64,000 nt of DNA, taken from positions 63,909 through 127,908 of the forward strand of contig PNAH01000026.1 in the NCBI GenBank assembly GCA_003170315.1, given 5' to 3'. The notes beneath the pieces were generated by a model that worked only from the letters and a program-made list of their open reading frames with translations, made no database searches and was not told the origin of the DNA. This stretch comes from Acidimicrobiaceae bacterium. Its GTDB lineage: Bacteria > Actinomycetota > Acidimicrobiia > Acidimicrobiales > RAAP-2. How positions within the stretch are numbered: position 1 is the stretch's first letter; each line of letters starts with the position of its first letter. Shown here piece by piece: positions 17,234 through 34,154 of the stretch. The translations under genes and the position numbers were made by a program.

Positions 17234-17471
17234 TCGGGGGTATCCCTTTACTCGTCTCATTCTCAACATTTCGGAGTCGGGCGTCGACGACCTCACGACC
17301 ATAACTTTCAGTCAATCAGCAATAACCGCAAGAAAAAGTAAGCCTACCAGTCAAATCTGGATCGGCACTCCGCAGCGGTTCAGCTTCACATCAAATTCCA
17401 TGAATACGCTGATCCCACGTCGAGGAATTCGCCATTGAATGAATCCGGCACCGCTCTAACTGCCACGCTCT

Positions 17472-19286
17472 TTATGGCGCCACATCCTCGGCTGCCGTGT
17501 TAGCGACCTTTTGAAAGGCGGCGCGAGCCAAGACTTCCTTTCGGGGCCCAAAATCCGCTACTCGACCATTCTCGAGCACTAGGAGAAGGTCGCAATCCTC
17601 GACGAGGGCGAGTCGATGCGAAATTATAATGCTCGTCATTTTTCCGCGAAGTTCGGTGATTGTCTGTCGAATCAAACTCTCTGAGAGACTATCGACGGCG
17701 CTAGTCGGCTCATCCATGACGAGCAGTCGAGGTGCACCGACAAGAGCTCGCGCAATCGCCAGCCGCTGGAGCTGACCTCCCGATAGGGCGGTGCCACCCT
17801 CGCCGACTTTGGTTTCGTACAGATCAGGCATCATCATTACGTCTTCATGAAGATGAGCTGCTCGCGATGCGGCTACAATCTCCTCGGGTTCAATATCTCT
17901 AAAGAGAGAGATATTGAACGCAATAGACCCTTCCAGTAGGACGAGGTCCTGAGCAACCAGCGCCACCGGACTCGACCTGCTTCCCTTTGCAATGCCGGTC
18001 GCCGGCACGCCCCCGACTAGGACGATGCCGCTTTCTGGCTCGAGCATTCCGAGGAGAATCTGACTCAGCGTGGTCTTTCCGCTGCCAGACCGCCCGACTA
18101 TTCCCAGGATTTGACCGTCCGGGACGTGAAATGTTACTTGCTTCAGAACTCGTCCTCTGACGTCATAGGCGAACGACATACTGTTCACATCGAGATCGAA
18201 TTTCGTCGGGAGTTCTCCGGAATCCACTTCGTATGGACTTTGGGAAAGACGGTCCAACTCCTGCGCCGTTGTATCCAGAAAGCCACCACTGGAACGTACC
18301 GCTTGAACACTGCTCTGCGTCCCAGACGCGTAAGACAGTGACCGCAGTATGAGGAGAAGCACGGCCGCTTTTTCACCAAGATTGTGCGTCGCATGGCCAT
18401 TTATGACCGCGAATGCGCAAATGAGGAAGAGCAGCGCCAGGGTTTGATAGACCACGGGGACCAGTAGTGACAAGAGCACTACTTGTCGCTGGGTGCGTGC
18501 GGCTGTTTCGTTACTCTCGACGAGTCCTGTTGTTGCTTCTTTTTCAACACCAAAGAGTCGAAACTCCCGAGCAAGTCTTATGTACTCGGTAACAAGTGTC
18601 GCCATACCGAGGCTGTTGTCCGATAAGCGAGCGGAGGCTTTGCGGCCCCATGTGTTGAATGGATGCAAGACGAACGATAGCAATAGTCCAAAAACGAGGA
18701 CGATCATTGCAGCAATTGGGTTTACCAAGAATGCGACGAGAAGAAGTGCAATCAGCGTGAGCAGCGATTGGAGCCCCGACGCCATCGCTAATGTAATCGC
18801 GGCCGCCCTTTCACAGTCGAAGGTGAGTAACTGTTGGAGATGACCGATACGCTCCTGCGACTGCAGTCGCCAGGTCGTACGAAAGAAGGCATTGATCATC
18901 TTGGTTCGGATCGATGCCAAAGCCTTGGTAAATGTGGAACTGGTGCTGATACTGGCCGCAACACCGGTACCTAAATACACAATTAGGAGAACTATGCACA
19001 GGGCGATGGCGTCACGAGTTGAGAATGAATGGCCGTATAGTACGAAGTGATTTTTTCCTTGGGCGCTATTTACGGCAAACTCGCTTACTATCACCAAGAT
19101 GCCGGCCTGCGCGAGGCCCGAGAAGAATGAACAGGTCGCAATCCAACTCAATTGCCGACCAAGTGAGGAACAGCCCATCGCTTTCAGCGTGGTCAGGATT
19201 CCAGCGATACTGCCTGTCGCGTTCTGCTCACGGGACTCGGAATCGTCTCCGTCTCGATGGAATCCCAATCTAAATCGTTTCGCCAC
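17472..19286 (-). CDS. ABC exporter half-transporter (permease fused to ATPase)
   Basis: A 604-residue ABC half-transporter expected to work as a dimer in the plasma membrane. About six transmembrane helices lie within residues 40-320, followed by an ATPase domain with Walker A GRSGSGKTT, Q-loop VAQDL, signature LSGGQLQRLAIARAL, Walker B LLVMDEPTSAVD and H-loop ISHRL. All ATPase motifs are intact. MsbA/PglK-like exporters in glycan clusters flip lipid-linked sugars, and no other flippase was seen here, so this is the best candidate exporter of the cluster product. It lies downstream of no obvious operon partner and is divergent from the membrane bicistron at 19634. Confidence 0.92.
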   Translation of the reverse strand: MAKRFRLGFHRDGDDSESREQNATGSIAGILTTLKAMGCSSLGRQLSWIATCSFFSGLAQAGILVIVSEFAVNSAQGKNHFVLYGHSFSTRDAIALCIVLLIVYLGTGVAASISTSSTFTKALASIRTKMINAFFRTTWRLQSQERIGHLQQLLTFDCERAAAITLAMASGLQSLLTLIALLLVAFLVNPIAAMIVLVFGLLLSFVLHPFNTWGRKASARLSDNSLGMATLVTEYIRLAREFRLFGVEKEATTGLVESNETAARTQRQVVLLSLLVPVVYQTLALLFLICAFAVINGHATHNLGEKAAVLLLILRSLSYASGTQSSVQAVRSSGGFLDTTAQELDRLSQSPYEVDSGELPTKFDLDVNSMSFAYDVRGRVLKQVTFHVPDGQILGIVGRSGSGKTTLSQILLGMLEPESGIVLVGGVPATGIAKGSRSSPVALVAQDLVLLEGSIAFNISLFRDIEPEEIVAASRAAHLHEDVMMMPDLYETKVGEGGTALSGGQLQRLAIARALVGAPRLLVMDEPTSAVDSLSESLIRQTITELRGKMTSIIISHRLALVEDCDLLLVLENGRVADFGPRKEVLARAAFQKVANTAAEDVAP

Positions 19287-19633
19287 GTGATCCCTTGCTC
19301 GTTTTCTGGTTCAACTGCTCGTTATCTCTAGACTCACATTACGAGAAGATGGCGTTTGAACCGCCTCTAAGTCGGCAACGCTCACGAAACTGGGAGTAGG
19401 CGTAGCCGTCGGGGTGCAGTTCGCCGTATTTGAATCAAAACAACAATGCTCGATCTTTTCGACGACCAGGGCGCCAACGTTCCGGGTGCGTTTCGGGCAA
19501 CAACTACACCGAGCTCCGGAGAGCTCGAGACGCCTATCGATGAATCCTGCTTCGCGAAACAAGGGACCAATTGCCGAGCGCCATCCCGTCAGCCGACAAG
19601 TCCTGGTCCGTCGTCGGCAACTAGTCTGAGTCA
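19287..19633. other. Gap between ABC exporter and membrane bicistron, nothing recognised
   Basis: A 347-base divergent intergenic region. A minus-strand open frame (19311-19634) translates to a cysteine-rich chain without family features or ribosome site and is judged chance. Promoters for both flanking units are expected here. Confidence 0.5.
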
Positions 19634-20044
19634 ATGCCTAGGATGGTTGCTTCTAATTCTAGTAGGCCCCTTTTAGCTCTTCTAATTGTCATCCTTTTGT
19701 TTGGGTTCACGCCGATCTCCCGAGTTCTGTTGCGGTCCGTAGACGGTAGTTTCGCTCCAAATCCATACAGCTCATTGGCGTTGGGTACTCCGTCACGTGC
19801 CGCCGTGGGATTTTTGGCGGGTGAGCCTGTGCCGGTACAGTTGACCAACCGAACGGGACACACCCAGACGTACCACTGGAGTGCCACACAGAATGGCGCT
19901 CTGATCAGCCTCGGTGAAGACACATTGGACAGTGGACGGGCATCGACAGTATTCGTTCCATCCCGTGGTGCCGTCGCCGGCAAGTTGCGGATCGCACTTA
20001 CTGGCACCGACATATTTGTCACCGTGCCCATTCGGAGCCCGTGA
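19634..20044 (+). CDS. Small membrane-anchored protein resembling a DUF1616 C-terminal domain
   Basis: A 136-residue protein with one N-terminal hydrophobic helix (LLALLIVILLFGFTP) and an extracytoplasmic beta-rich domain. The order FAPNPYSSLALGTPS, then AGEPVPVQLTNRTGHTQTYHW resembles the C-terminal part of DUF1616 membrane proteins. Its stop overlaps the next start (GTGA, 20041-20044), indicating tight coupling to the large membrane protein. Such proteins recur beside glycosyltransferase genes in actinobacteria and archaea, but no function is established. The ATG at 19634 and another four codons in are both possible starts. Confidence 0.7.
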   Translation: MPRMVASNSSRPLLALLIVILLFGFTPISRVLLRSVDGSFAPNPYSSLALGTPSRAAVGFLAGEPVPVQLTNRTGHTQTYHWSATQNGALISLGEDTLDSGRASTVFVPSRGAVAGKLRIALTGTDIFVTVPIRSP

Positions 20045-22410
20045 GTACGAAATCTCCCGAGGCTAGGGAGAGCATTGAGATTGCGCCGAAGCTAACGTCG
20101 CGCCGGCTTTCAATCGGGGAGCTCTGGCCAAACGTTTCACCAACGGGGTTCTGGCTCGCCGCCGCTTTGCTGTTGTCTGTTGGTCTGGCTCTCTGTCACT
20201 CGCCACTGGTGCCGCTGCCGGGGGTCGTCACGCTCCTTCTTGTCCCGGGCGCAGCGGTGATGTCGGCCCTACGGGCGCGTCCAGCCAACATCGCTGGACG
20301 GCTGGTGCTGGCCGTATGCCTGAGCATGACGGTAATCATGATCGTGGGTGGTGTGGCCAGTCTGCTTGGCCCTCGGGTTGGTCTGGCACACCCGCTGAAC
20401 GCACTACCTGAGAGTGTGATCTGGGCCGTTCTCGCAATACTCATGCTGGCGGTTTGTGCAGTCAAGTACAGCGATCCAGTGACATGGATCTTTGAAGGTC
20501 TTCGGACTACGCACGCCGTTGGCGCGCTGGCGAGTGGCCTACTGGTTGTGCTTTCGATTCTTGGCGCCGCCCAACTGAACCACAGCGGCAACAATCACCT
20601 TGCGGTCTTCGCCACCACTCTCGACGTCGTCGTGCTGCTTGCTGGAATCGTGGGCGGATGGAGACGGACGAGCCGATGGCCCCTGAACTCCTTGCTCTAC
20701 TTCGCCTCGTTGGCGCTCCTTGTGTCAACCAGTTTGCGTGGCGCACACCTCTACGGCTGGGATGTGCAACATGAGTTTGGCGTCGCTTCGGCTACGCTCC
20801 GCGCCGGAGTGTGGGTCGTACCCGCTAACCATGATGCCTACGCTTCGATGCTCTCGCTCACAGTTCTTCCGGCGATTCTTCACTCCTTAGTGAAGTTACG
20901 TCTCCTCGCTTTCTTTCAATTGGTTGTCCCCGCGATTTTTGCTCTACTACCCCTAGCGGTGTTCTCCACCGTTCGAGGCGTACCACGCTGGATCACCCAC
21001 GGACGGACCACACCTCGTCCCGGACTCGCGTTCGCAGTGGTAGTAGCCCTCATCGTTTCTAGTGTGGCATTCGCTTCCCAATTAATAAGCATTACTCGTC
21101 AAGCTATGGCTCTGACCATGATGGCCGCACTAGTGATGGTGCTCTTCGATCGCACTATGTTGAAGCGCCCTGCCCAAATTGTGATTGGTCTGCTACTTGT
21201 TGCCATTTCCATCACTCACTACTCGACTTCGTACCTTACGGCAGCCATATTGCTTTGCGCTTGGCCCGTGAGCTTGATGTGGTCCAGAGGACTGCTCGGA
21301 ACACCGAAAGAGAAGATTGATAGGCACCGTCGCGATACGCGATCGCGGAGCATCATAAACGGTACCCTCGTGGGCGTTGCTCTCATCGCCGCTTTCGGAT
21401 GGAGTCTCGGGATCACTCGAAATAACGCCCTCACTAATCCCATAAGTGCCGTCATCGCCAAAGGATTTGGCTTTACGTCATCGACTCTGACAAGGAGTAT
21501 TTCGCCTAGCCATTTTGAACAACTCTTTGTCCGTGAGTTAAGGAAAACTGATCGTTGGATAGTGCCAGTACCAAGTTCAAGCTCGGTTCATCTCGTGGCA
21601 GCCCCATACCTGAAGTCACCGGGGGTGGTCCCGATCCTCAACGCGTGGTGGCATGAGCTGAGCTATCTCACGATAGAAAGTCTGTGGCTCTTGCTCGGAG
21701 TGGCGCTGCTCTACGGGCTCTTTCGCCTCGGGCGTCGTCGCTCGTACGAGTACAGTTCCGATCTAGTGGGACTAGCTGCGGCCGGTCTAGTTCTTGGCGG
21801 AGTATTACGCTTCTCTGGGACTTTCGCTGCCTACTTCGATCCCGACCGGGCGGCGATCGTTACGGCGATTCTGCTGGCCGCACCTCTCACCCTATTCCTC
21901 GATGACATCGTGTCATTCCTTTACGGAGTGGGCAATTTTCGCCGTGATCGGGTGAGGCGAGCGTTGTTGGGCGCCGGAACCCTCGTGGTTGCGGTCCTTC
22001 TTATCGGCGCCACCGGACTGGGCTACCTGTTCTTCGGTGGTAACGCGCCGGGATCGGTGACGGCGCGAGACGTAGGGGCCAAGGAGTTGACGGTTTCCAC
22101 CCCTGAACTGGCGACAGCGGTGTGGCTACGGAACAATGTCAATTCTCCAAATATTGTCCAGAGCGATTTCCTCGGGCAAGTGATCTTGCTTTCCGAACCG
22201 GGGCGCTATGGGTTACTGCCTGAGATTGTGCCACCAGAGGTGGACCATGGGGCATACATTTACTTGTCAACACTTAACCTGGCCGGCGATCTTACTCAAG
22301 CTCAGGCGCCTGACGCCCCGTATCAGCTCGCGTACCGATCAACTATTGGATTCTTCAATCGAAACTTTTACATCGTTTATTCAACTGGTGCGACACGTGT
22401 TTATCATTGA
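20041..22410 (+). CDS. Large polytopic membrane protein, DUF2206-like
   Basis: A 789-residue protein with many hydrophobic helices (about 15 or more), a short cytosolic start, and a soluble C-terminal domain of about 120 residues. The segment HLYGWDVQHEFGVASATL followed by YASMLSLTVLPAILHSL, and the final NFYIVYSTGATRVYH, fit the pattern of DUF2206 proteins, which look like GT-C-type polyprenyl-sugar-dependent transferases. The first 130 residues resemble the membrane half of DUF1616. The GTG at 20041 overlaps the previous stop. A role in transferring or polymerising sugars outside the membrane is inferred only from fold and location. Confidence 0.75.
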   Translation: MSTKSPEARESIEIAPKLTSRRLSIGELWPNVSPTGFWLAAALLLSVGLALCHSPLVPLPGVVTLLLVPGAAVMSALRARPANIAGRLVLAVCLSMTVIMIVGGVASLLGPRVGLAHPLNALPESVIWAVLAILMLAVCAVKYSDPVTWIFEGLRTTHAVGALASGLLVVLSILGAAQLNHSGNNHLAVFATTLDVVVLLAGIVGGWRRTSRWPLNSLLYFASLALLVSTSLRGAHLYGWDVQHEFGVASATLRAGVWVVPANHDAYASMLSLTVLPAILHSLVKLRLLAFFQLVVPAIFALLPLAVFSTVRGVPRWITHGRTTPRPGLAFAVVVALIVSSVAFASQLISITRQAMALTMMAALVMVLFDRTMLKRPAQIVIGLLLVAISITHYSTSYLTAAILLCAWPVSLMWSRGLLGTPKEKIDRHRRDTRSRSIINGTLVGVALIAAFGWSLGITRNNALTNPISAVIAKGFGFTSSTLTRSISPSHFEQLFVRELRKTDRWIVPVPSSSSVHLVAAPYLKSPGVVPILNAWWHELSYLTIESLWLLLGVALLYGLFRLGRRRSYEYSSDLVGLAAAGLVLGGVLRFSGTFAAYFDPDRAAIVTAILLAAPLTLFLDDIVSFLYGVGNFRRDRVRRALLGAGTLVVAVLLIGATGLGYLFFGGNAPGSVTARDVGAKELTVSTPELATAVWLRNNVNSPNIVQSDFLGQVILLSEPGRYGLLPEIVPPEVDHGAYIYLSTLNLAGDLTQAQAPDAPYQLAYRSTIGFFNRNFYIVYSTGATRVYH

Positions 22411-22445
22411 GACGACGTCTTCATAGCACTTCGCGCTGTCGAACC

Positions 22446-23333
22446 TTAACGTTCTTGTCGCGCTGATCGAAACTCGTTGCGGATGGCTTGTTCGTCCATT
22501 GTTTCGAAGTTCTTGGTGGAGTGAATAATCGATTTGCCGAGTTCCAGTAACTCCTGCGGGGCCGCTGGGAGAGTCCTCCAGTCGACGCCCATGGGGAGGT
22601 CGTCGTATCTATTACCAAACTCACCGAGTTGATAGCCGATGGAATAAAGACACAGGCCAAAGATGTAGTCCTCCTGCAGTCCAGTCCTGAAAAGCTCGGC
22701 TCGCCCGAGAAGGCCGTTCTCATCCAGAGCCGCCACTGCCTCATAGCGGTAAATTGCCGCACCACCTTGGATTGAGTCACCGAGCATGTAACCGTGCTTA
22801 CGGGCTCGTAGGAGGAGACCGACGAACTTATGCGCCGCCCGAGGATTGGTCCACGCGCGGACCGCCAGATAGAGAAGAATTCGCCGCTTGGCCCAGCCCG
22901 CGTTACGGACTCCAATACGGTCGTAGCCAACGCGAAATGAGCCAAGCGATCCTAGATGCGGGTCAGAGTCGAAGAGTTCTATTGCCTTGACCTCAAAATC
23001 AGAACCCGCTATGAGCGCGTCAGTGTCGAGCCGGACGAGAATTCGGAAAGGCCGAGTGAGGGCTTCTTTAAACCCATCGGAGAGGTTCAGATAAAGTCCC
23101 CCAAATACACCGCGCGCACGAGCCTCCACGACAGTGAGTTGGTAGCGTTCTCCTAACTTGATCCCGAGACCACGCCGAGAATCGTCAACCAGGATGATCC
23201 GAGCCGTTGGTGCGAAGTAGCGAATGCTATCGATCGTGTCGGTGACGAAGTCTGGCCGACATTTCGGGCCAACAGGAATTACGAAGACCGAATCGGCGCC
23301 CACGTTGCGCCGTTTCTCGGGATCTATGGACAT
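22446..23333 (-). CDS. Glycosyltransferase, GT-A type
   Basis: A 295-residue GT-A-like protein starting with DSVFVIPVGPKCRPDFVTDTI and TARIILVDDSRRG, which resemble the GT2 nucleotide-binding strands, and carrying a DXD-type RLDTDAL motif near residue 100. The later segment QEDYIFGLCLYSIGYQLGEF is in the position of the catalytic acidic residues. No membrane helix. It converges tightly with the DUF2206-like gene (35 bases between stops) and is followed at some distance by a GT4 gene upstream on the same strand. Sugar unknown. Confidence 0.8.
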   Translation of the reverse strand: MSIDPEKRRNVGADSVFVIPVGPKCRPDFVTDTIDSIRYFAPTARIILVDDSRRGLGIKLGERYQLTVVEARARGVFGGLYLNLSDGFKEALTRPFRILVRLDTDALIAGSDFEVKAIELFDSDPHLGSLGSFRVGYDRIGVRNAGWAKRRILLYLAVRAWTNPRAAHKFVGLLLRARKHGYMLGDSIQGGAAIYRYEAVAALDENGLLGRAELFRTGLQEDYIFGLCLYSIGYQLGEFGNRYDDLPMGVDWRTLPAAPQELLELGKSIIHSTKNFETMDEQAIRNEFRSARQER

Positions 23334-23442
23334 GGGCGGCGAGGCGTGATTGCAACGAGTTCCCTTGTCGGGAAGGAGGAGTCGTAATGGCCGCCATCAA
23401 TGAATTGTGATTTCTCAGGGTGGCTGATCATGACTCCCAAAA

Positions 23443-24576
23443 TCACGATACCCCGAGCATCTCGTCATAGAGCGATTCGTAGCCCTCGATCATCTTCGCG
23501 AGGCTGAAGCGCTCAAGGGCAACCGCCCGGGCTCTGGTACCGAAACGGCGACGAAGCTGAGGCTGGTCAATCAACTGTCTCAAAGCCGATGTCAAATCGA
23601 TGACGTCGTCACTTTTCACAACGAAGCCCGTCTCGCCATCCTGAACGGCCTCACGGACACTGCCAACGTCAGTTGCGACGACGGGGAGGCCCATCAACAT
23701 CGCTTCGAGGATCGAGAGGGGGAAGCCCTCTGCACGCGACGGCAAGACAAAGACGTCAAAGGTCTTCATGAGCTCGGCAGGCGACTCGACCCAGTCGAGA
23801 ATCTTTACCCGAGGCGCGACCCCGAGCGTTTCGGCCAGCTCCTCGAGTGCGGCACGCTCCTTGCCACGGCCAGCAACGACGAAGGTGGCACCTGGAAGAT
23901 CGACAAGAGATTCAAGAACAAGGTCGAGCCCCTTCAAATAGTCGAGCCTTGCCAAGCACCCGATGACCGTCGAACCCAAGGAATAGCGGTGCTCCTCGGC
24001 AGAGCCGTGATCGACAACACCGTTATAGATTGTCCGCACTGAGTTTCTGGGCAACATGGCGCGCAATTCGATGCTGCGCGCCGCAGCCACTCCAACAGCC
24101 ACGTGTGCGTCAAGGCGCCGCGAGGTGAAGCACGTCATGATCCGGCTACGAGTTCCCGAGTTATCGATGGGCAGGTGTTCGACGGCGAGCAGCCGAAGTC
24201 CGAGGATGGTAGAGGCGGCCACGATCGCCTCTCTGCATGCCGGCAACCAGGTCAAGTTTGCCTGGAATATGTCGAGCTTCATAGCAGCGACTTCTCGACG
24301 ATGTCGTGCAATGTTCCGGAAGTCGCGGATGCCTTTCGGAGCGGGAAGGACAACGGCTCGAGAGCCAGGTCGGTAAGCTGAGAGGTGCTCTACAGTTGTT
24401 TCGTCGACACCGATGATCGTCGCCCGGACGTGCTCATGGAGTCCTGCCAATAGCGTGCCGAGAGCAATTTCGGCACCGGCCCACTCGACCGAGTCGGAGT
24501 AAAAGCCCACGTTTATCGACGATCGAGAAGTAGTGATCTCCGTCTGCCCCTCTGATCGCGGGCGGCACAGGGCCAT
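23443..24576 (-). CDS. Family 4 glycosyltransferase
   Basis: A 377-residue GT4 enzyme. The N-terminal domain has VGFYSDSVEWAGAEIALGTLL with the nucleotide-site glycine replaced by an AGAE loop. The C-terminal domain has VIGCLARLDYLKGLDLVLESL and the intact EX7E motif in EGFPLSILEAMLMGLPVVATDVGS. The ATG at 24576 is preferred to the GTG at 24600 because AAGGGG lies five bases upstream of it. Upstream is an 800-base gene-poor stretch. A retaining transfer mechanism is expected from the family; donor and acceptor unknown. Confidence 0.9.
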   Translation of the reverse strand: MALCRPRSEGQTEITTSRSSINVGFYSDSVEWAGAEIALGTLLAGLHEHVRATIIGVDETTVEHLSAYRPGSRAVVLPAPKGIRDFRNIARHRREVAAMKLDIFQANLTWLPACREAIVAASTILGLRLLAVEHLPIDNSGTRSRIMTCFTSRRLDAHVAVGVAAARSIELRAMLPRNSVRTIYNGVVDHGSAEEHRYSLGSTVIGCLARLDYLKGLDLVLESLVDLPGATFVVAGRGKERAALEELAETLGVAPRVKILDWVESPAELMKTFDVFVLPSRAEGFPLSILEAMLMGLPVVATDVGSVREAVQDGETGFVVKSDDVIDLTSALRQLIDQPQLRRRFGTRARAVALERFSLAKMIEGYESLYDEMLGVS

Positions 24577-25376
24577 GTTCCCCTTGACTCCAATATCCAC
24601 TTGTCAGCTGCCGCGCCGTGCGCCCTATCCAGGCTCGGGCTCGTCACCCGAGTCTCTCCATTCTCCGCGAATCCCAAGGCCGCCCGGAGGCGATCCTCTT
24701 TGACTCCACGTTCCTTGACGAACGATCCGGCTCGAACCGAGTGTGCTATCTGTGATACGACGGTCGGGGGCCCAGCCGCAACTATTCGGACAACCGATGA
24801 ACGAAAGTGAGAACGGTGACGATCCGGTTGCCATGTGGCAACTCGGGGAGTGGGCGACTGCGGCGCGAAACGGCGGTCGGTGATGGTCACAAGGCCTCCA
24901 CGGATCATTTGTCGAAGATAGCGGTTGGCGGCATTGCATCTGCGTCAGGCTCGTAGCTCAATCTTGGCTTGGCTACCCTCAAGCTTCACCTGATCGTATC
25001 GCACCCCGCGTGACTGACGTTTGTCTCGATATTTTAACTTTATGATGGCGGTGTCTCGGACGAAACTCGACATTTTTTGATCGTGAATTAGGTACAACAT
25101 GCGGACGATTGACAGAAGCGACGTGCGATAGCAAGCCTGGGCGCGTCCACATGTCCTAATCCTCGCCCCACTTCAAAAAAGTTTACGAATCCGCCGGCTT
25201 CATCCAGCGTCGACGCGCTCGCTCGATCGCAAGGCCGCGAAGGTCCGCATACGCCGTTCTCCCCAAAGCACGGACTGCTTCGCTCCCCATACAATGTAGC
25301 CCAGGCGACTTCCAGGGCTCATGGAGCGAGGCCGAGACGTCACAACAGAACACTCCGAGTGTTGAAGGGAACTGAC
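24577..25376. other. 800-base gene-poor stretch, nothing recognised
   Basis: Several open frames on both strands (for example minus 24513-24908 and minus 25183-25410) have neither ribosome sites nor family features. A T-rich run lies near 25073. The stretch separates two divergent glycosyltransferases and may be decayed DNA. I see no RNA gene or intact element. Confidence 0.45.
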
Positions 25377-26534
25377 GTGTCCACCAGCCAGTCAGTGAGG
25401 CTGTTGTCACTCAACCAGAATCTGGCGGGATCCGGAATGCTTGGTCACGAGACTGCCGAACGTCGGATGCGCCAAATTGGCGCATCCGACGTTCGGCTGC
25501 AATCGCTCGTCACAAAGCTCCCCCCGCTGGGGCTGGCCGGCCGGGTTGCGGGGCGACCGCTCCCGTGGCTTTGGTACCTTGACCTTGATTGGCATCCGAC
25601 CCGCTGGCAAATCGTCGAGAGCCTTCGCGGCCGCCACACCTTGAAGAAACTGTTGAGTACGTTCGACGCCAACGTGGTGCACGTGAGCACGCACACAGCT
25701 GCGCTGTTATGCGTCCGGTTAATGCGGCAGCGTCCCTTCATGATTTCTGTCGATGTGCCGATTTGGCCTTGGCATGAAATGGGTATATGGCGACCGGTTC
25801 GGTCCTATAGCCGAGCATCGCTGTGGCTTTCCGAACAACTTGAGCGACGAGCTTTTGGCAACGCAGCGTTAGTGCTTGCATACTCAGAGTGGGCGGCCCA
25901 CCTGGTCCAGCAAGAGTGCCCGTCCGCTCGAGTTCGGATCTGGCATCCCGGTGTGGACGCAAACCGGTTTAGCCCCGCGTCCCAGCGGCCAGCAGGAGGC
26001 GGCCACATTCCCTATCGCCTGCTCTTTGTAGGCGCGCGCTTTGCAGCCAAGGGTGGCGAGGACCTCCTTGAGGCGGTCGGCCATCGATTGGGTCGCGATA
26101 TTGAATTAGACATCGTGACGCCCGACCCGGTGGCAAGTAGGCCCGGGCTGCGGGTCCACCACCTGGAGCCCGGGGCGCCACAATTGGTAGATCTCTACCG
26201 TTCAGCAGACCTGTTGTGCCTACCGACGAGGGGTGATTCCTTCGGTTGGGTAGTGCTTGAGGCAATGAGTTGTGGTGTGCCTGTTATAGCCTCGAGAATG
26301 GGTGCTATACCCGAGTTGCTCCGACCAGGCACTGCCGAGGCAGCTGGAATTGTGGTGGATGCGCGCGATCCCGCAGCATTGGCACAGGCACTGGACGAGT
26401 TGCTAGCTGACCCAGAGCGGCGCAGAAGCTTGGGCGCAGCTGGTCGCAGAGCGGTCCTCGCACGCCACTCGAGTGAGGTTCAGATGAAGCGCTTCCTAGA
26501 ACTTGTCGGCGAAGTATTGGAGTCCGCGAGCTGA
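25377..26534 (+). CDS. Family 4 glycosyltransferase containing a 43-bp palindrome in its coding sequence
   Basis: A 385-residue GT4 enzyme. The donor domain shows LLFVGARFAAKGGEDLLEAVG, the motif DSFGWVVLEAMSCGVPVIASRMG (an EX7E variant with Asp in place of the first Glu), and a typical PELLRPG end. The N-terminal acceptor domain contains LSLNQNLAGSGMLGHETAERRMR. The GTG at 25377 is favoured over a TTG at 25359 because GAAGGGA lies about six bases upstream. Codons for residues 27-40 form a perfect inverted repeat (25455-25497). The gene is followed by a 344-base gap. Donor sugar unknown. Confidence 0.88.
   Translation: MSTSQSVRLLSLNQNLAGSGMLGHETAERRMRQIGASDVRLQSLVTKLPPLGLAGRVAGRPLPWLWYLDLDWHPTRWQIVESLRGRHTLKKLLSTFDANVVHVSTHTAALLCVRLMRQRPFMISVDVPIWPWHEMGIWRPVRSYSRASLWLSEQLERRAFGNAALVLAYSEWAAHLVQQECPSARVRIWHPGVDANRFSPASQRPAGGGHIPYRLLFVGARFAAKGGEDLLEAVGHRLGRDIELDIVTPDPVASRPGLRVHHLEPGAPQLVDLYRSADLLCLPTRGDSFGWVVLEAMSCGVPVIASRMGAIPELLRPGTAEAAGIVVDARDPAALAQALDELLADPERRRSLGAAGRRAVLARHSSEVQMKRFLELVGEVLESAS
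25455..25497. repeat. Perfect 43-bp inverted repeat (21-bp arms, one-base centre) inside a gene
   Basis: The left arm runs 25455-25475, the centre is A25476 and the right arm runs 25477-25497. All 21 arm positions pair, so the mRNA would form an almost loopless hairpin beginning about 26 codons after the start. The arms start GCCGAACGTC and end GACGTTCGGC. The palindrome is fully in frame within the glycosyltransferase. Confidence 0.97.
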
Positions 26535-26878
26535 TTAGACCCTTGCGACATCGGAGCGGAAAACGGCGCTAAGCGTACAGAGGGGCTGTCTGCGAGGGTC
26601 GACCCCGTGGACGGGGGCCTGGACTGGCCCCACGGCGTGGCTGTGCCCATCAAATGTTCCGCTCGGACGAGGATGCGGCCCTGTTCGGCCCCCGTGAAGT
26701 CAGCGGCGGTCATGCCCACATCGTGGCTGAACTTGAGGGAACTAAAAGGGTCGCGCTGAGAACTTCGAGACGTTAATGTAAGGCAGTCCGGCGCCAACTT
26801 GGCGGGCGCCGGGGATCGAGGAGCGCTGGGTCTAGATGCGGTACAAGTGATCGCATCTGCTGAGGAGTAGAAAAAGAG
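26535..26878. other. 344-base gap, nothing recognised
   Basis: No family-like open frame on either strand. A GC-rich inverted repeat is present around 26800-26815 (GGCGCC...GGCGCC type). The sequence just before 26879 carries GAGGAG, which may serve the next gene. Confidence 0.4.
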
Positions 26879-27685
26879 ATGAGCGTTGCCGATTTCATTC
26901 GGTGGGAGATACGAAATGCCCCAAGACGCGCCACACAAGCTCGGCGAGTTGCGATTGATGAATTCGACCGCGCGCCGCATCGGCTCCACAAGGCTGCAAA
27001 ACGCTGGCCTCTGCCCTCGACTCAGTTGGTATGCGTCTATCGGTACAGCAATCATGCCCACGTCGAGGCGATACTTGACAATTATGAAGTCCGAGCGGCG
27101 CTGTGGGCCCTTGACAAGACGCATCCGGCACTTGCTTCCCAGACGTGTGGTAGTGGGCCCGGTGGTCGATTTGCTCTCCTCAACAGACTCATCGGCGAGC
27201 TACCTGAGGACGGCAGCCACTTGGTCATCACGGACGATGATGTCACTTTCGCTCCAGGCAGTCTCGCAACGCTGGTGAAGACTTCGGCCCATTTCGGTAT
27301 AGACCTGGCTCAGCCGGCTCACGGTCCGCTCAGTCACTGCTCGTTCGACTACAACCGATTTCAGCGGGGCGTCATTGGGCGTCGCACCATGTGGGTCGAA
27401 ATTGGACCGACAGTATTATTCGGCCCAAAAGCTCGCGACGAACTCTTGCCGCTTCCGGAGAATTCGACAATGGGGTGGGGCCAGGAGGCAGTGTGGCACC
27501 AAGCAGCGAAGAATGGCCTGGCACTCGGTATCATCGATGGCGTCCGAATGCGCCACCGAGGCTATGTCGCCGCTTCCTATGACCTGGAGACAGCGGCAGC
27601 GGAGGACGCTAGAGCGCTCGCGAAATACGGGTTGACATCGCAAAGCGAAATGCAGATAACCATCTCCGCCTTAGCCATCGACTAG
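26879..27685 (+). CDS. Putative glycosyltransferase, GT-A-like, family unclear
   Basis: A 268-residue protein with TQLVCVYRYSNHAHVEAIL as the first strand, ALWALDKTHPAL, then GSHLVITDDDVTFAPGSLATLV: the DDD triplet with surrounding hydrophobics resembles the metal motif of GT-A enzymes (DUF707-like or GT2-like). Later blocks are TVLFGPKARDELLPLPE and GWGQEAVWHQAA. No membrane segment. GAGGAG is 12 bases upstream of the ATG. It lies in the glycan region and converges with the second GH26-like gene. Assignment to glycosyl transfer is likely but the family is not certain. Confidence 0.65.
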   Translation: MSVADFIRWEIRNAPRRATQARRVAIDEFDRAPHRLHKAAKRWPLPSTQLVCVYRYSNHAHVEAILDNYEVRAALWALDKTHPALASQTCGSGPGGRFALLNRLIGELPEDGSHLVITDDDVTFAPGSLATLVKTSAHFGIDLAQPAHGPLSHCSFDYNRFQRGVIGRRTMWVEIGPTVLFGPKARDELLPLPENSTMGWGQEAVWHQAAKNGLALGIIDGVRMRHRGYVAASYDLETAAAEDARALAKYGLTSQSEMQITISALAID

Positions 27686-27731
27686 TTGACTATCCAACGG
27701 GGTGAAGGGTCACTGTCGGGTAAGACCCCTA

Positions 27732-29063
27732 TTAGTTGCCGAACTCCTGTTGGTACGCCGCGTTGGACAGTGGTGTGCTGGAGCCCAGCACCATGGTGTT
27801 GCCCGCGACCTCGTCGAAGTACTGCTGGAAGGCGAAGTTTCCATTGTTGACCGCAGATCCAATCCCGTCAATGTAGGCGGGGTCGTCGCCCGATGGACTC
27901 GACACCAGACCCCACTCGGGAAAACTCATGGGCTTTCCTTGGGCGGCAGCGAACGCCTCAAAAGTGATCAGACCTGCAGGAACACGGGCCAACTGTGAGA
28001 AAGGCACTGCGGTATTGGGGTTCATGCACGACTGGTCATAGACGTCCAACCCCATAATGTCCACATACGCATTGCCGGGGTAGTAGTTCGCGTAAGGAGT
28101 TGACGCAGTGCAGGAGTTGGGATTCCAGTCGATGAGGAAGTGCTCGCCCGAAGCGGAACGCAGCGCGGTGACTTCGTTGTCGAAGCAGGTCGCCCACAGG
28201 CTCTGCTCTTGGGTGGTGGTGCCGATGAAATCGCCCTCCCACGACCCATTCATTTCCCAACCGAGACGAATCACTGAATTCTGTAGACCGGCGGCGACAA
28301 GATTCGTGCCGAGTTCTGAAGCGTACGTGTTGAAGTCTCCCGCCGCGCACGACTGCTCCCAACCCAGTGGGTTACTCGAGTCGGCGATACTCGCAGGGAT
28401 CAGACTTATTCCCAACACCATTTGACGGACCTGGGGATCTGCGGCGATCCATGAGGTGTATCCGGCACCTGATGGGCCAGTAAACCAAGGATCCGTCCAA
28501 TCGCTCCAGGCCAGGTCCGACCCATATGCTCCGAGGCACGTCACCGTAGAACTGGTCAGGGCATCATAGCTGGCGATTGTGGACTGAAGAGCGGAGAGAC
28601 TCCACCCGACGTTGCTGTTAGCGGTGAGGCATTCGCTTCGCGATGCACCTGCCGTGATGGGCCCACCCGAAGAGGAAGGAGTCGATGGTGCGGTCGTCGG
28701 CGCTGTCGGGTCGGTCGTGGTCGTCGTCGGAGGAGCCGTGGTCGTCGTTGTCACCGGAGGTGTGGTCGTCGTTGCCGCGCCGCCGCCGCCGCCGCCAGGC
28801 GCGACCGTCGCACCGGTCGACGTGGAGCTGATTGGAGACTGGCGGTCAAGCCCGAATCTGATCAGCTGGCTGATACCCGACTCCGACACGAAGACGTACG
28901 CGTGAGTCGCCGTTCCCGCAACCGCGGGGGTTGACCCGCTGGCCGAAGCATCGACGGTGATCATCGCCACGAGTGCAAAGGAGGTGACAGCAAGAGTCAC
29001 GCCCTTTAGAAAACGGTGCGTCGTCTCGCCCTTAACAAATTTTGTGATTGTGCCCTTATTCAT
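27732..29063 (-). CDS. Secreted GH26-like glycoside hydrolase (copy 2) with long Thr/Pro linker
   Basis: A 443-residue paralogue of the protein at 16067-17233. After MNKGTITK a hydrophobic signal or anchor helix (GVTLAVTSFALVAMITVDA) is followed by an extracytoplasmic segment, a glycine run, and a linker of repeated TTTT/TAPPTTTT type (about 95-130). The catalytic domain follows. The probable acid/base is E270 (RLGWEMNG) and the nucleophile E383 (FPEWGL). Conserved paired cysteines match copy 1. The ATG at 29063 is favoured because the charged signal start follows it; the open frame extends to 29096. Cell-surface location is inferred. Role as in copy 1: beta-glycan cleavage or trimming, substrate unknown. 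Confidence 0.85.
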   Translation of the reverse strand: MNKGTITKFVKGETTHRFLKGVTLAVTSFALVAMITVDASASGSTPAVAGTATHAYVFVSESGISQLIRFGLDRQSPISSTSTGATVAPGGGGGGAATTTTPPVTTTTTAPPTTTTTDPTAPTTAPSTPSSSGGPITAGASRSECLTANSNVGWSLSALQSTIASYDALTSSTVTCLGAYGSDLAWSDWTDPWFTGPSGAGYTSWIAADPQVRQMVLGISLIPASIADSSNPLGWEQSCAAGDFNTYASELGTNLVAAGLQNSVIRLGWEMNGSWEGDFIGTTTQEQSLWATCFDNEVTALRSASGEHFLIDWNPNSCTASTPYANYYPGNAYVDIMGLDVYDQSCMNPNTAVPFSQLARVPAGLITFEAFAAAQGKPMSFPEWGLVSSPSGDDPAYIDGIGSAVNNGNFAFQQYFDEVAGNTMVLGSSTPLSNAAYQQEFGN

Positions 29064-29204
29064 GTTGTATAAATTCACAGGCGCAAATCGCGGCAACGCC
29101 TACGGTCCCACAACATTCACCCAACTTGGTCAGACAACGCGGTTTACCAGGACTTTTGGGGAATCTTTTGTATTAAAAAGTTGCGTCTCATTGACGCCGC
29201 GTAA

Positions 29205-29516
29205 TCAATCAACGCCGCCGACATCGTTCACCGTCTTGAGCAACCCGCCAGCGAGCGCGGTGCGCCACATTGCGTGCGCACTGATAATGGCCCGGAGTTC
29301 GTCGCGAACGCGCCCAACGAGTGGTGTCGCATCATCGGATCCAGATCTCTCTTAATAGATCTGGACTCACCCTGACAGAACGCCTGAAACGAATCGTTCA
29401 ACGCTCGAATTCGTGACGAGTTCCCAAACGGCCGGCAGTTCGACAGTCTCTTCGAGGCAAAGGTCGTGCTCGAAGACTGGCAACATGAACACAATCACGA
29501 CTCGTGGACGGATTAA
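29205..29516 (+). pseudogene. Relic of an IS3-type transposase (rve/DDE core, C-terminal half)
   Basis: In one plus-strand frame the translation runs ADIVHRLE, ERGAPHCVRTDNGPEFVA, EWCRIIGSRSLL, then DLDSP-stop-QNA-stop-NESFNARIRDEF and FDSLFEAKVVLEDWQHEHN. RTDNGPEF and the DEF...FDSLFEAKVVLEDW order are characteristic of the C-terminal half of IS3-family OrfB transposases. Two TGA codons (at 29358-29360 and 29370-29372 by frame) interrupt it, and neither the N-terminal half nor clear terminal repeats were found. It is a dead remnant between the GH26-like and GT-C genes and indicates past transposition. Confidence 0.82.
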
Positions 29517-29623
29517 TCAGATCGTGGCGCACCGACGGCTGGAACTCCGAGTCGAAACGTAACGAAGGCCCGTCGGTTCGATAGTACGAGAGGTCGGTGC
29601 GCCAAAGATGTTGACGGATCGTT

Positions 29624-31108
29624 TCAGCGGCGATGAAAGTGAATCACGCCCACACCGCTAATCGATCCGCTTTTCACTCGAATGAATCCATGGCTTCTCA
29701 GGCTGGATATGAATCCCCCCGTCCCTTTCACACTCCCGTCGTTCACCACCCACACGTTGCTGGGTGCGACCACGAAGGCGCTCGCACTCTCACGTAAATC
29801 GAGACCCTCGATGAACGACTGATTCGACACTTGCGGCCAGCGGCGTAGCGGCGAGCCAGCGCGCTCCAAGTAATACTCGACTGCGGTCGTAATGGAATGG
29901 TCCGGCAGTGCGACCTCGCTCGTTGGGCTGGCGTTGCGCATGATGTACTGCGCGGCGCTCTGTAGATTTTCGAATTGGGATCTCGAGACGGTGACCGAGT
30001 TCGCAAAGAGAATGACCAGGATAGCGATCATCGCCCCGATGACGATTATTTGCCTTCGAACCGTTAACCGAGCCCGTAGCGCTCGCAGCGCGTACGTGAT
30101 GAGTAACGCTAACGCAATCGCCATCCCTGGCACCGACGCGGTCACGTAGCGGTCCACGTAGATGAGATGTACTGCGGTTATGAGAACGAGAATCGCCGTT
30201 GGCACGACTGCCCAACAGAGGCAGACGACCAACCGGTCGACTTCGAAACGAGACAGGGCCAAGTTGCGCCGGCGCCATCCGAATACGCATCCGGCAACCG
30301 TGAGGAGTCCGATTACCGCGACGATAACTGGATAGATCAGGTGCCCGAGCGCCGAGGATGCCGGCCCTTCAATGTCTTCCAGAAACGATTTCGGAGTTAG
30401 AGCGCGGATCCACGCAACTTGGCCCTGTTGATGTGCCACGAACGCTAGGAATGTCACTACTGCCACGACCAGTATTCCGATCGGTGCCAGCAATCTGCGC
30501 CACTGACGACGAAACAACTGAGACTTCATCGCGGCGCTAGCTCCTAGCACGCTGAGTGGCGCCAAGACCATGAACAGTTGCAGCATGAGCGTCACTATCG
30601 CAAGAAAACTGAACAGCCATACCCAACGGACTTCTCCTCGATCGAACCACCTCATGAGGGCTGCGACGGACAGGACGGAAGTCAACGTTGCAAGGGCGTA
30701 GGGACGGGTGTTCAGCGCTTCGGTGATCATGAGCGGACTTGTGCACGTAATGACGACGGCGAGGAGTCCGCACCAGAAGCCAGCTACGCGGTTGGCGAGA
30801 ACTCCAACGAAATATACGGTAAGACCGTATGCGAGTAACGAGAGGGCTCTCGCCCATTGAATGCTGTACGACGGCTCGAGCCAAAAATGAAGGAGCGCGT
30901 AGTAGATCACGACCACACGGTCAACGACGAGAGACTGATGCCACAAGGCAGTCCAACCCAAATGTGCGGAGTAGAGCGAAGCCCCCTCATCCCGCGATAT
31001 CGACTTATTGAGAAAGGGCAGTAGCGCCGCCGAGGACAAAATCGAGACGATTGCAAATATGGCATTCGAAGCGCTTCCTGGTGTGCGCGCCGTCTTCGGA
31101 GAAACCAT
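29624..31108 (-). CDS. GT-C type membrane glycosyltransferase (ArnT/PMT-like)
   Basis: A 494-residue polytopic protein with about ten transmembrane helices. The first outer loop carries SRDEGASLYS, the acidic DE motif of GT39/GT83-type enzymes that use polyprenyl-phosphate sugars as donors. A short soluble C-terminal domain (about 420-494) follows the last helix. The ATG at 31108 is preferred because homology to the family begins soon after it; upstream codons to 31219 overlap a tRNA fragment's flank. It acts on the outer face of the membrane. Its donor could be the product of the dolichol-phosphate-mannose-synthase-like GT2 enzymes nearby (inference). Confidence 0.85.
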   Translation of the reverse strand: MVSPKTARTPGSASNAIFAIVSILSSAALLPFLNKSISRDEGASLYSAHLGWTALWHQSLVVDRVVVIYYALLHFWLEPSYSIQWARALSLLAYGLTVYFVGVLANRVAGFWCGLLAVVITCTSPLMITEALNTRPYALATLTSVLSVAALMRWFDRGEVRWVWLFSFLAIVTLMLQLFMVLAPLSVLGASAAMKSQLFRRQWRRLLAPIGILVVAVVTFLAFVAHQQGQVAWIRALTPKSFLEDIEGPASSALGHLIYPVIVAVIGLLTVAGCVFGWRRRNLALSRFEVDRLVVCLCWAVVPTAILVLITAVHLIYVDRYVTASVPGMAIALALLITYALRALRARLTVRRQIIVIGAMIAILVILFANSVTVSRSQFENLQSAAQYIMRNASPTSEVALPDHSITTAVEYYLERAGSPLRRWPQVSNQSFIEGLDLRESASAFVVAPSNVWVVNDGSVKGTGGFISSLRSHGFIRVKSGSISGVGVIHFHRR

Positions 31109-31223
31109 GATTTTCGCTTCACTTTCAAGAAAGAAAAACCGGCTGAAGGGTCGTGACGTCAGTGTTCTCGAAACCTTAATCAAATACCGGTGCGATTTCG
31201 TACGTTCGCAGCGACGCAAGTCT

Positions 31224-31275
31224 TGGAGCGGGCGACGGGAATCGAACCCGCGTTCTCAGCTTGGGAAACTGAGAT
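31224..31275 (-). tRNA. 3' fragment of tRNA-Gly(CCC), truncated; likely attachment-site remnant
   Basis: Read on the minus strand, the anticodon arm has loop TTCCCAA (anticodon CCC, positions 31265-31263), then the variable region, a T-arm with GGTTCGATTCC, the acceptor 3' half CGCCCGCT and an encoded CCA. The 5' acceptor strand (expected GCGGGCG) and the D-arm are absent from the following bases (31276-31320). Only about 52 bases of the gene remain, ending at the anticodon stem. Such 3' tRNA copies are what tRNA-targeting integrases leave at one end of an island. No intact copy is in this window. Confidence 0.9.
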
Positions 31276-31919
31276 TCAGAAATGAATGTGATTGCAGAAC
31301 TGTTGCGCATTAAGCACTTGAAAGGTCGCGAGTTCCAACAAATGCCGTTGGATTCGGCTGCGAGGCGGCAGTCATTGGAAGTTCTGGTAGGCGGGAGCTC
31401 CCGCAGTATGCGCTTGTAATCTCATTTAAAATCCGGGCGTCAGGCTTGGAGGTACTTTTGGCCAAGTGGACCAGTAATTTCCGAGCACGCGCCCGTGTCT
31501 CAAGGATTCCGAAGTTACAACACTAAGGAATCAATGATTTCGATCCTCCAATCGAGATCCTCAATTGCCATTGACGAATCGCGAAACCCACGTGCATCCC
31601 ACTCATAATCATCCCGATTTAGGCGTCAGGAGCAACCCTGGAGAATCGCCCAACGAAGAGGCTGAACGTCGAATTAGGCACTGAATTGATAGTCGGGGAA
31701 GCGATTATTTAATTTCCTAATCGTGACTATCTTTGCAATTTGTGTTCTGACGGTCCTGGTCCGAGCCACTAAATAAATCTTCGAAGCTCGCGGTGGCGCT
31801 CTTAGGGAATCACAACGGATTCACACCCACTTGACAACGCACTCAAAAACTGGGATGGTGTTTTTCGCAAGGGCATATTCGAAGGATACGGCTTTGAAAA
31901 ATAGCTCTGCGATCTTGGT
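31276..31919. other. 644-base gene-free stretch beside the tRNA fragment
   Basis: The sequence is visibly more AT-rich than flanking genes and has no long open frame, ribosome site or family match on either strand. It may be eroded island DNA. The promoter for the GT2 copy at 31920 should lie in its last 100 bases, but I cannot define it. Confidence 0.5.
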
Positions 31920-32714
31920 TTGAGATCCGGAATGTTCACCGACTCAACAAGTGAGTTCACGCCATTCCGGCTTTCGATAATCGTCCCCTCCTACAACGAG
32001 CATTTGACCATTCTCAGGGTGCTAGATGCACTTTTGTCTCTTGACATACCTGGGAAAGAACTTGAAATCATTGTGGTCAACGATGGTTCCACTGACGGCA
32101 CGGCAGAATTGCTCGAGTCATTTGATGACTCCAGATGCGTCAAAGTCAGTCACGCGGTGAACCTTGGCAAAGGTGCTGCAGTGCGAACGGGAATCGCTTC
32201 CGCCCAGGGCTCGCACGCACTCATTTTCGACGCCGACCAAGAGTACGACGTCGCCGATATTCCGCGATTGGTTACACCGATCCTGTCGGGCAGAGCCGAA
32301 GTGGTGTACGGGAATCGGATGTCCGGCTTCGGGACCGTGCACCCGTCCCTCTGGCACTCCGTCGGTAACAAGGCGATGACATTTGTTGCAAACATCATGT
32401 TTGGCTCTGCAATTTCTGACTTGCACACTTGCCTCAAACTCATCCCCATGCCACTTCTTCGTAGTTTTAAGCTCGACGAAAATGGTTTCGGATTGGATAC
32501 CGAAGTAAGCGCTGAAATGCTTCGCGCCGGATTTCGTCCTTTCGAAGTCCCAATTAGCTATGTGGGTCGTAGCAAAGAAGAAGGAAAGAAGATTCGACTC
32601 AATGACGCACTTCGATGTGTCTTCGTGCTCGTCAAAGTTCGTCTCCGGCCCGTCACTCCGTACGGGCGGCGAAATCGCGCTCTGACGCCTCGGGTACACA
32701 CTTCTACGGACTGA
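31920..32714 (+). CDS. Dolichol-phosphate mannosyltransferase-like family 2 glycosyltransferase (copy B)
   Basis: A 264-residue paralogue of the enzyme at 10055-10849, same length, gap-free alignment, about four-fifths identical by eye. All family elements are kept: FRLSIIVPSYNE, NDGSTDGT, FDADQEYD, YGNRMSGFG, SYVGRSKEEGKKIR. TTG at 31920 corresponds to the ATG of copy A; the ATG at 31932 (conserved in both copies) is an equally good start. It is probably functional and would make polyprenyl-phosphate sugar. Downstream lies a broken copy of the GT4 gene that also accompanies copy A, so the pair moved as a unit. Confidence 0.9.
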   Translation: MRSGMFTDSTSEFTPFRLSIIVPSYNEHLTILRVLDALLSLDIPGKELEIIVVNDGSTDGTAELLESFDDSRCVKVSHAVNLGKGAAVRTGIASAQGSHALIFDADQEYDVADIPRLVTPILSGRAEVVYGNRMSGFGTVHPSLWHSVGNKAMTFVANIMFGSAISDLHTCLKLIPMPLLRSFKLDENGFGLDTEVSAEMLRAGFRPFEVPISYVGRSKEEGKKIRLNDALRCVFVLVKVRLRPVTPYGRRNRALTPRVHTSTD

Positions 32715-32973
32715 ACACGGTCAGAACGGCCGACTCGTCATGTTCACTCGCGTAGTCGAAGTTCGCGTTCGGTCCCTGCGTGGCTGGGATCGTGGAATTC
32801 AAAAGTGGTCCCATAACCCTGGACATCATCACGACTTGGAAGTCCGGCGACCCGGCTTACCAATTTTATGGGCGCACACTAGGGTCTTACAATGATCGAC
32901 CGGCACCGAAGTTGAGATTCGCCTTTCTCTTGTTCTCAAAGTCACTCTTTTCGAGGTACTGCCGGATGACCCC

Positions 32974-33201
32974 GTGAGTCGTCTTCGGGTAGCCCACGTG
33001 ACCGACGGGGACCGAGCGGTCTTTTCTCCAACCGATTCTCTTCGCCCTTTCGACGTTTCACCTGTCTTAATTCGCAAGTTTGACTTCATGGAGGCGGCTT
33101 ACATGCCTCGTCTACAGCTCCTTCCGCTTCGCCTGGGCACATGGATCCGACGAGTGCCGCTCGGTATCACTTGGAACGAAGTGAGGAATCGAGAAGGATG
33201 A
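32974..33201 (+). pseudogene. Internally deleted remnant of the family 4 glycosyltransferase at 8826-9980
   Basis: A 75-codon frame starting SRLRVAHVTDGDRAVFS matches the first strand of the intact GT4 (MKRLRVAVVSDA), and its second part, IRKFDFMEAAYMPRLQLLPLRLGTWIRRVPLGITWNEV, matches residues around 98-135 of that protein. The glycine loop region between them and everything after the WNEV/WHEV position are missing. It ends at a TGA overlapping the galE start (ATGA). Neighbourhood order (GT2, then GT4) is the same as at 8826-10849. It is a decay product of a duplicated pair. Confidence 0.8.
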
Positions 33202-34154
33202 GAGTTCTTGTGACTGGCGCCGCTGGATTTATCGGCTCGACGACCGCCGAACTATTGCTGTCAAATGGTGACGAAGTTGTCGCTTTCGACAGTTTGGTCA
33301 CCGGTCGATTCGAGAACGTGCCGCCAGGAGCGACGTTTGTAGAAGGCGACTGTGGTGACGTTGAATTGGTGAGGTCGCTAGGTCACTTCGATGCATGCGT
33401 GCATTTCGCGGCCCGAATTGAGCCGAGCGAATCGATGAAGAATCCTGAGGACTTCTTCTCCAATAACGTTGCGTCGAGCTTTCGCCTCCTCGACGCGCTC
33501 ATTAAGTCGGGCGTTGAACGGTTCATTTTTTCATCGTCGTGCGCGGTCTACGGCGACCAGATCGAGATGCCGATTGACGAGACTCGTACGACCCAGCCTC
33601 AGAGTCCGTACGGTCAGTCCAAACTTATGGTGGAAGATGGTCTGAGATGGCTGGTATCTGCGGGCCGGTTACGCGCGGCATCAATGCGCTACTTCAATGC
33701 GGCGGGGGGTACTCTGGCGCACCCGGAACGCCACATTCCGGAAGGTCATCTCATACCCATTGCACTGGATGCCGCCGATGGTCATCGAGAGTATCTCGAG
33801 ATCTTCGGTAATGACTATCCGACACCCGATGGCACGTGCATTCGAGACTACATCCACGTTAAGGATCTCGCCGAGGCCCACGTGCTCGCCATCACTGCGC
33901 TGGAGAATCATCGTGAACTGGTGTTAAATCTCGGTTCCGGTGTGGGATATTCCAATCGCCAAGTTGTCGAGACGGTAAAGAAGGTAACGCAGCGCGACTT
34001 TGAAATCCGCTACTCAGGGCGCCGATCTGGCGACCCCGCGGTGGCAGTTGCCAGCAATGAGCGAGCACGCGTGATGTTGGACTGGCAACCTGAGCAATCG
34101 GACATTGAAGTCATTGTCGCCGACGCGTGGGCGGCCCGTCAGGCTTTAGGTTGA
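33198..34154 (+). CDS. galE: UDP-glucose 4-epimerase family NAD-dependent epimerase
   Basis: A 318-residue extended short-chain dehydrogenase. The NAD-binding glycine motif GAAGFIG is at residues 7-13, the catalytic serine region is FSSSCAVYG (about 111-119), and the active site YGQSK gives Y138 and K142. The DYIHVKDLAEAHV block is typical of GalE. The enzyme interconverts UDP-glucose and UDP-galactose in the cytosol and would supply donor sugar to the glycan region. The ATG at 33198 (AGAAGG just before) overlaps the stop of the broken GT4. Assignment to GalE rather than another UDP-sugar epimerase is probable, not certain. Confidence 0.85.
   Translation: MRVLVTGAAGFIGSTTAELLLSNGDEVVAFDSLVTGRFENVPPGATFVEGDCGDVELVRSLGHFDACVHFAARIEPSESMKNPEDFFSNNVASSFRLLDALIKSGVERFIFSSSCAVYGDQIEMPIDETRTTQPQSPYGQSKLMVEDGLRWLVSAGRLRAASMRYFNAAGGTLAHPERHIPEGHLIPIALDAADGHREYLEIFGNDYPTPDGTCIRDYIHVKDLAEAHVLAITALENHRELVLNLGSGVGYSNRQVVETVKKVTQRDFEIRYSGRRSGDPAVAVASNERARVMLDWQPEQSDIEVIVADAWAARQALG

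Follow-up and report, generated by a model that had tools for sequence, protein, structure and literature searches.

Palindromic elements of the REP, MITE and Rickettsia types are known, and some of them lie inside genes. The Rickettsia palindromic elements and REP consist of palindromic DNA, at times in frame within genes, and are multi-copy inserts. Inverted repeats can also be perfected where they stand, and such quasipalindrome correction is itself a known mutational process. That imperfect inverted repeats become perfect through template switching during replication is established in Escherichia coli, as outlined in PMC7202029. In yeast coding genes template switching has changed residues, with arms of 7–16 bp according to the account given in PMC8604942. 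The ORFs of E. coli contain fewer small inverted repeats than randomised ORFs (Ladoukakis and Eyre-Walker 2008, as cited in PMC6060812).

Here we describe a perfect palindrome of 43 bases in a bacterial glycosyltransferase gene, located in a window (the whole stretch of DNA that was analysed) of 64,000 bases. Positions 25455–25497 form an inverted repeat of 21+1+21 bases, in which the arms are 100% complementary around a single A at 25476, exactly as given in the preliminary description. The left arm (25455–25475, + strand) covers codons 27–33 (Ala-Glu-Arg-Arg-Met-Arg-Gln), the central unpaired A (25476, + strand) opens codon 34 (Ile), and the right arm (25477–25497, + strand) takes in the rest of codon 34, codons 35–40 and the first base of codon 41. 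The left arm starts 26 codons after the GTG at 25377, and the reading frame (25377–26534) is open across the whole palindrome, so the element does stand in frame without a stop, as had been claimed. All 21 pairs are of the Watson-Crick type, with no G-U pairs; seven of them join first to first codon positions and 14 join a second to a wobble position.

The palindrome is ordinary in kind, and its length is unusual for coding DNA. The second-best separate arm in the window (perfect arms, loop of up to 10) is 13 bp long, and the best arms in ten Markov-1 simulated windows measured 9–13 bp. Perfect arms of 21 bp (loop of up to 10) are expected 3e-7 times per window and 1.1e-5 times per 2.35-Mb genome. 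The source genome is a 36-contig assembly, 94.5% complete. When 1,034,037 of its 2,351,085 bases (the window and 55 stretches) were searched with a loop of up to 8, 17 perfect repeats with arms of at least 12 bp were found, of which the present one is the longest and two of 18 bp are the runners-up. These figures bear out the earlier remark that such a repeat is rare in coding sequence. Furthermore, the 161 bases around the palindrome have no match in their own genome other than the site and its reverse complement, and the sequence is single copy.

The host gene (25377–26534, + strand, GTG start, with an alternative GTG at 25359) encodes a family-4 glycosyltransferase, as recognized from the ORF, Pfam and an AlphaFold2 model. 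Both Pfam matches of the product, Glyco_trans_1_4 (E 3.8e-24) and Glyco_transf_4 (E 2.9e-10), lie over the cut-offs, and a relative, P0122, starts at the same residue as the product of the GTG at 25377. The model has a mean pLDDT of 84.9 and a pTM of 0.86, with a local pLDDT of 66–71 at residues 21–40, the palindrome region. This region comprises the second half of a predicted helix (residues 22–37), of which the left arm encodes a part, and the turn into a strand (41–47); the right arm encodes the end of the helix and the turn. Because the affected stretch is a helix end and a turn in the model, the protein is probably still functional. The GC3 of the gene is 0.64, compared with 0.77 for 403 ORFs of at least 900 bases in the same genome, in keeping with horizontal acquisition. 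The codon index is 0.41 (rarer codons) in the right arm, 0.65 in the left arm and 0.49 in the whole gene, and codon usage does not reveal which arm was copied, because the usage of the gene is itself unlike that of its genome.

The surroundings of the gene, between about 7567 and 33000 of the window, are dense in glycosyltransferases and also contain an ABC transporter and two secreted glycosidase-like proteins (products judged by eye); the latter, at 16067–17302 and 27732–29096, have Ser/Thr- or Thr/Pro-rich linkers. The nearest siblings match the flanking genes, with G029 at 83% over 18000–19347 and 86% over 33204–34000. Among the best 40 of 62, 37 of 37 and 40 of 49 candidate matches of three siblings to 18000–34000, none covers the glycosyltransferase, and the region is matched in pieces only. 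At 31222–31275 (− strand) inspection by eye suggests the 3' half of a tRNA gene, likely tRNA-Gly, and ARAGORN found no complete tRNA in the window. Stretches that resemble it occur elsewhere in the same genome and in three siblings. This stretch is possibly the remnant of an integration site beside the glycan locus.

Searches by DNA gave no close counterpart of the gene. In the 98 other genomes of the genus there is none, merely two stray matches of 25–30 bases, and in the 171 other genomes of the family there is no match to the gene at E ≤ 1e-6. Close-relative DNA was found neither in viral contigs nor in genome contigs, the latter yielding two distant loci with 27% and 35% identity. By protein, some family-4 glycosyltransferase is matched in 99 of 99 genomes of the genus, and the best match outside the source genome is 39% identical over about half of the protein. 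Samples of the order (397 genomes, own included) and the class (395 genomes, own included) each contain one other genome with a relative at E ≤ 1e-60, with 43% and 40% identity, respectively. At the homologous site of these two distant relatives (L038 and L054), the DNA pairs at 5–8 of 21 positions (three registers each), where about 5 are expected by chance.

Close relatives were recovered as proteins, from sequences that derive from public genomes and metagenomes. A search of a database of 5.8 billion proteins, with scoring limited to the 7,995 candidates that had most words in common, yielded 337 relatives, and the best 120 of these were used; a second search with N-terminal fragments added one more, P0122, and a third with shorter N-terminal fragments gave no further relatives. 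The closest over the full length is P0002 (95% identity). P0002 to P0006 and P0122 are 95, 92, 88, 84, 68 and 93% identical to the product, respectively, and none of the six has a gap across the palindrome. P0007 does not extend to the site. A broader alignment (21 rows) includes 17 relatives that span the site, among which P0020 alone differs in length there, by one residue. P0122 (131 amino acids) ends after residue 131, and P0007 (251 amino acids, 11 contigs) starts at residue 135 of the glycosyltransferase; alleles broken near codon 132 may circulate among the relatives, P0122 and P0007 perhaps being the two parts of one such allele.

For each relative we counted how many of the 21 pairs would be possible with the best synonymous codons, a pairing potential that is calculated from residues alone and is thus an upper bound. 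The potential is 21 in P0001, P0122 and P0002, 20 in P0003, P0004 and P0005, and 13 in the outgroup P0006, and it ranges from 12 to 17 in 12 more distant relatives that cover the site. The residues of P0003, P0004 and P0005 each force at least one broken pair. When all odd centres were scanned, with P0122 left out, the site outranked every other centre in P0001, P0002, P0004 and P0005 and shared the top rank with one other in P0003. The distribution suggests that palindrome-compatible residues arose between the split from P0006 and the split from P0005. Because the residues of five of the six relatives allow 20–21 of the 21 pairs, the palindrome or an imperfect precursor of it probably predates this lineage.

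The height of this potential is unusual; its retention is not. Random conservative substitutions placed at the same positions preserved an equally high potential with a P of 0.17 for P0122, 0.047 for P0002, 0.14 for P0003, 0.11 for P0004 and 0.0003 for P0005, and random substitutions at random positions of the site did so with a P of 0.20, 0.048, 0.28, 0.30 and 0.015, respectively, in a test that carries a starting-point bias, since the window sequence is perfect. P0005 alone stands out, and P0002 does so marginally. Among control sites of the same protein with a potential of 17–19, those with one to four substitutions lost 0.3–2.0 pairs on average, apart from one group of two, in which 0.5 pairs were gained. 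Of the control sites with five substitutions, five showed a mean loss of 0.8 pairs and another gained 2. The palindrome site lost 0, 1 and 1 pairs at two substitutions and 1 at five. By this control the palindrome retains its pairs no better than other sites do, and retention there is not clearly above chance.

Two codons within the arms vary in a particular manner. Codon 29 (CGT, Arg; 25461–25463, + strand), which pairs with 25489–25491, encodes Asp in P0002 to P0005, Glu in P0006 and Arg in P0122. Codon 39 (GTT, Val; 25491–25493, + strand), joined to codon 29 by a pair between their first bases, encodes Leu in P0002 and P0005, Val in P0003, P0004 and P0122, and Ser in P0006. The six clade members, including the window, thus show three states: Arg-Val (the window and P0122), Asp-Leu (P0002 and P0005) and Asp-Val (P0003 and P0004). 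The paired first bases are C-G in the Arg-Val state of the window and can be G-C in Asp-Leu, and they form a forced G-G mismatch in Asp-Val. The Asp codons (GAY) are two or three bases away from the CGT of the window, so that going from Asp to Arg takes a multi-base change within one codon. That the new bases of codon 29 complement the other arm follows from the perfection of the arms and provides no extra evidence. The simplest order of events would be Leu39 to Val39, which would break the pair, followed by Asp29 to Arg29, which would re-form it with the opposite arm as the source. The five nearest alleles are not ordered by the tree (no branch at 95/80), and the order rests on parsimony; P0002 keeps Leu39. 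Judging from the predicted secondary structure, residues 29 and 39 would not be in contact in the protein.

We consider it rather probable that the palindrome was completed in place by template switching during replication, that is, by quasipalindrome correction. An older imperfect inverted repeat would already have been present in the glycosyltransferase gene, and the relatives would carry near-palindromic DNA at this site. During replication the imperfect repeat would fold on the nascent strand, and one arm would then be rewritten as the complement of the other, which would remove the mismatches. The change from Asp29 to Arg would represent one such templated event, subsequent to that from Leu39 to Val, and the hairpin in the mRNA would be a by-product. 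Such a process accounts for the constant length, the presence of a single copy, the multi-base change within a codon and the all-Watson-Crick pairing. The depletion of small inverted repeats in E. coli ORFs is counted against it, and so is the retention of pairing potential, which does not clearly exceed chance.

The main rival is selection on the mRNA. The preliminary description had predicted a very stable hairpin about 26 codons from the start, and this prediction holds: the palindrome folds as RNA into a 20-bp stem with −46.6 kcal/mol for 73 nt (z −8.7), and of the 60-nt windows taken along the gene in 6-nt steps none folds more strongly (−45.6 compared with a median of −18.4 kcal/mol). 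Such a stem, 78 nt after the start codon, could slow translation, be a target of RNase III or protect the transcript, and compensatory changes would then keep the pairing. The Asp-Leu and Arg-Val states do resemble compensatory ones, and in five relatives the residues permit 20–21 pairs. However, the Asp-Val alleles P0003 and P0004 carry the forced G-G mismatch, and the DNA of the distant relatives L038 and L054 pairs near chance. The absence of G-U pairs is more easily reconciled with DNA copying than with selection at the RNA level. Moreover, no intrinsic terminator (stem followed by a T run) was found on either strand in 24900–26000, and in the same interval Rfam gave no match at the gathering score, the sole match at E ≤ 1 scoring 18.3 bits where 73 are needed. 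A selected hairpin is thus possible, and in our judgement unlikely.

An extension of the template-switching reading is that the palindrome heals itself. Repeated re-copying of one arm from the other would keep the repeat in this gene family and tie together residues ten codons apart (as in Asp-Leu and Arg-Val) for which contact in the protein has no evident cause, such that the mechanics of DNA, rather than the structure of the protein, would drive the covariation. We offer this extension tentatively and regard it as doubtful.

It is improbable that the repeat arose in vitro, with a fold-back or strand switch in amplification or assembly rewriting one arm, as the preliminary description had suggested for a fold-back. 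The condition of the assembly (36 contigs, incomplete) gives this idea some room, but a fold-back chimera would invert the flanks, and here both flanks continue the conserved gene in the normal manner; furthermore, the combination Arg29-Val39 also occurs in the protein sequence of P0122, a distinct allele with 93% identity. More improbable again is completion of the repeat by ordinary independent substitutions. Fourteen of the 21 pairs have a wobble base on one side, and synonymous drift can supply many pairs, but only about 1e-5 repeats of this kind are expected per genome. Least credible of all is the in-frame insertion of a palindromic element (REP, MITE or Rickettsia-type), the scar of which the preliminary description had proposed: although such elements do occur inside genes, the site has no extra length compared with the six relatives, no second copy in the genome and no match in the genus, and we have rejected this candidate.

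Smaller repeats within genes of the same genome lend weak support to template switching. Two of them were each compared with the 29 best-matching sibling loci (matches occurred in 52 and 83 of 99 genomes). The first, a 14+1+14 repeat in a glycosidase-like ORF (L061:9430–9458), has no broken pairs here, two in the nearest sibling and 4–9 in 26 other ungapped siblings; it is imperfect in all 27 ungapped siblings, and two more loci are gapped. The two broken pairs of the nearest sibling look derived in that sibling. The second, a 13+0+13 repeat in a coaBC-like gene (both genes were named by eye), shows no broken pair either here or in the nearest sibling, compared with 3–10 in 24 other ungapped loci, with four gapped. 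Both repeats likewise formed without insertion, and the same process may have acted elsewhere in the genome; the support is weak because their length is close to that expected by chance and they were selected as palindromes. Of the 17 perfect repeats in the searched bases, five were looked at more closely. As to the two 18-bp repeats, one (18+1+18, L079:18850–18886) separates two convergent reading frames and resembles a terminator, and the other (18+5+18, L048:7850–7890) is partly common to sibling genomes.

If template switching is right, the locus would be a natural bacterial case with arms longer than those compiled for yeast coding genes, in which a replication error, not selection, sets several bases and an amino acid. 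Template-switch events can mimic positive selection and the coevolution of residues, and this glycosyltransferase family would allow them to be measured in a compact setting. No natural bacterial coding palindrome of this length traced to template switching was found among the titles and abstract openings listed in the literature searches. Among known palindromic DNA, the Rickettsia palindromic elements and REP resemble 25455–25497 in their symmetry, but the present sequence is single copy and not an insert. Inverted repeats that are perfect, lie within genes and encode conserved residues in both arms are also described from the mitochondria of Nematomorpha (PMC6649704); according to that description they are numerous and up to 284 bp long, whereas here there is one of 43 bp. 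Template switching that creates and keeps RNA hairpins, outlined in PMC8794818, likewise produces compensatory changes of pairs through the copying of arms, in RNA genes there and in a protein gene here. The homogenisation of arms in Saccharomyces cerevisiae, as summarized in PMC8604942, shares the position of the repeat inside a gene and would share a multinucleotide change in one arm, usually with the replacement of one amino acid; its arms are 7–16 bp and the parental DNA is known, in contrast to the 21-bp arms of this bacterial gene, the close relatives of which are known as proteins only. The lacZ quasipalindrome reporters of E. coli, as presented in PMC7202029, would be a parallel in that an imperfect repeat becomes perfect, or more perfect, at a similar size (an 18-bp quasipalindrome). 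There the frameshift was engineered and the event observed; here the gene is natural, the changes are substitutions only, and the event is inferred.
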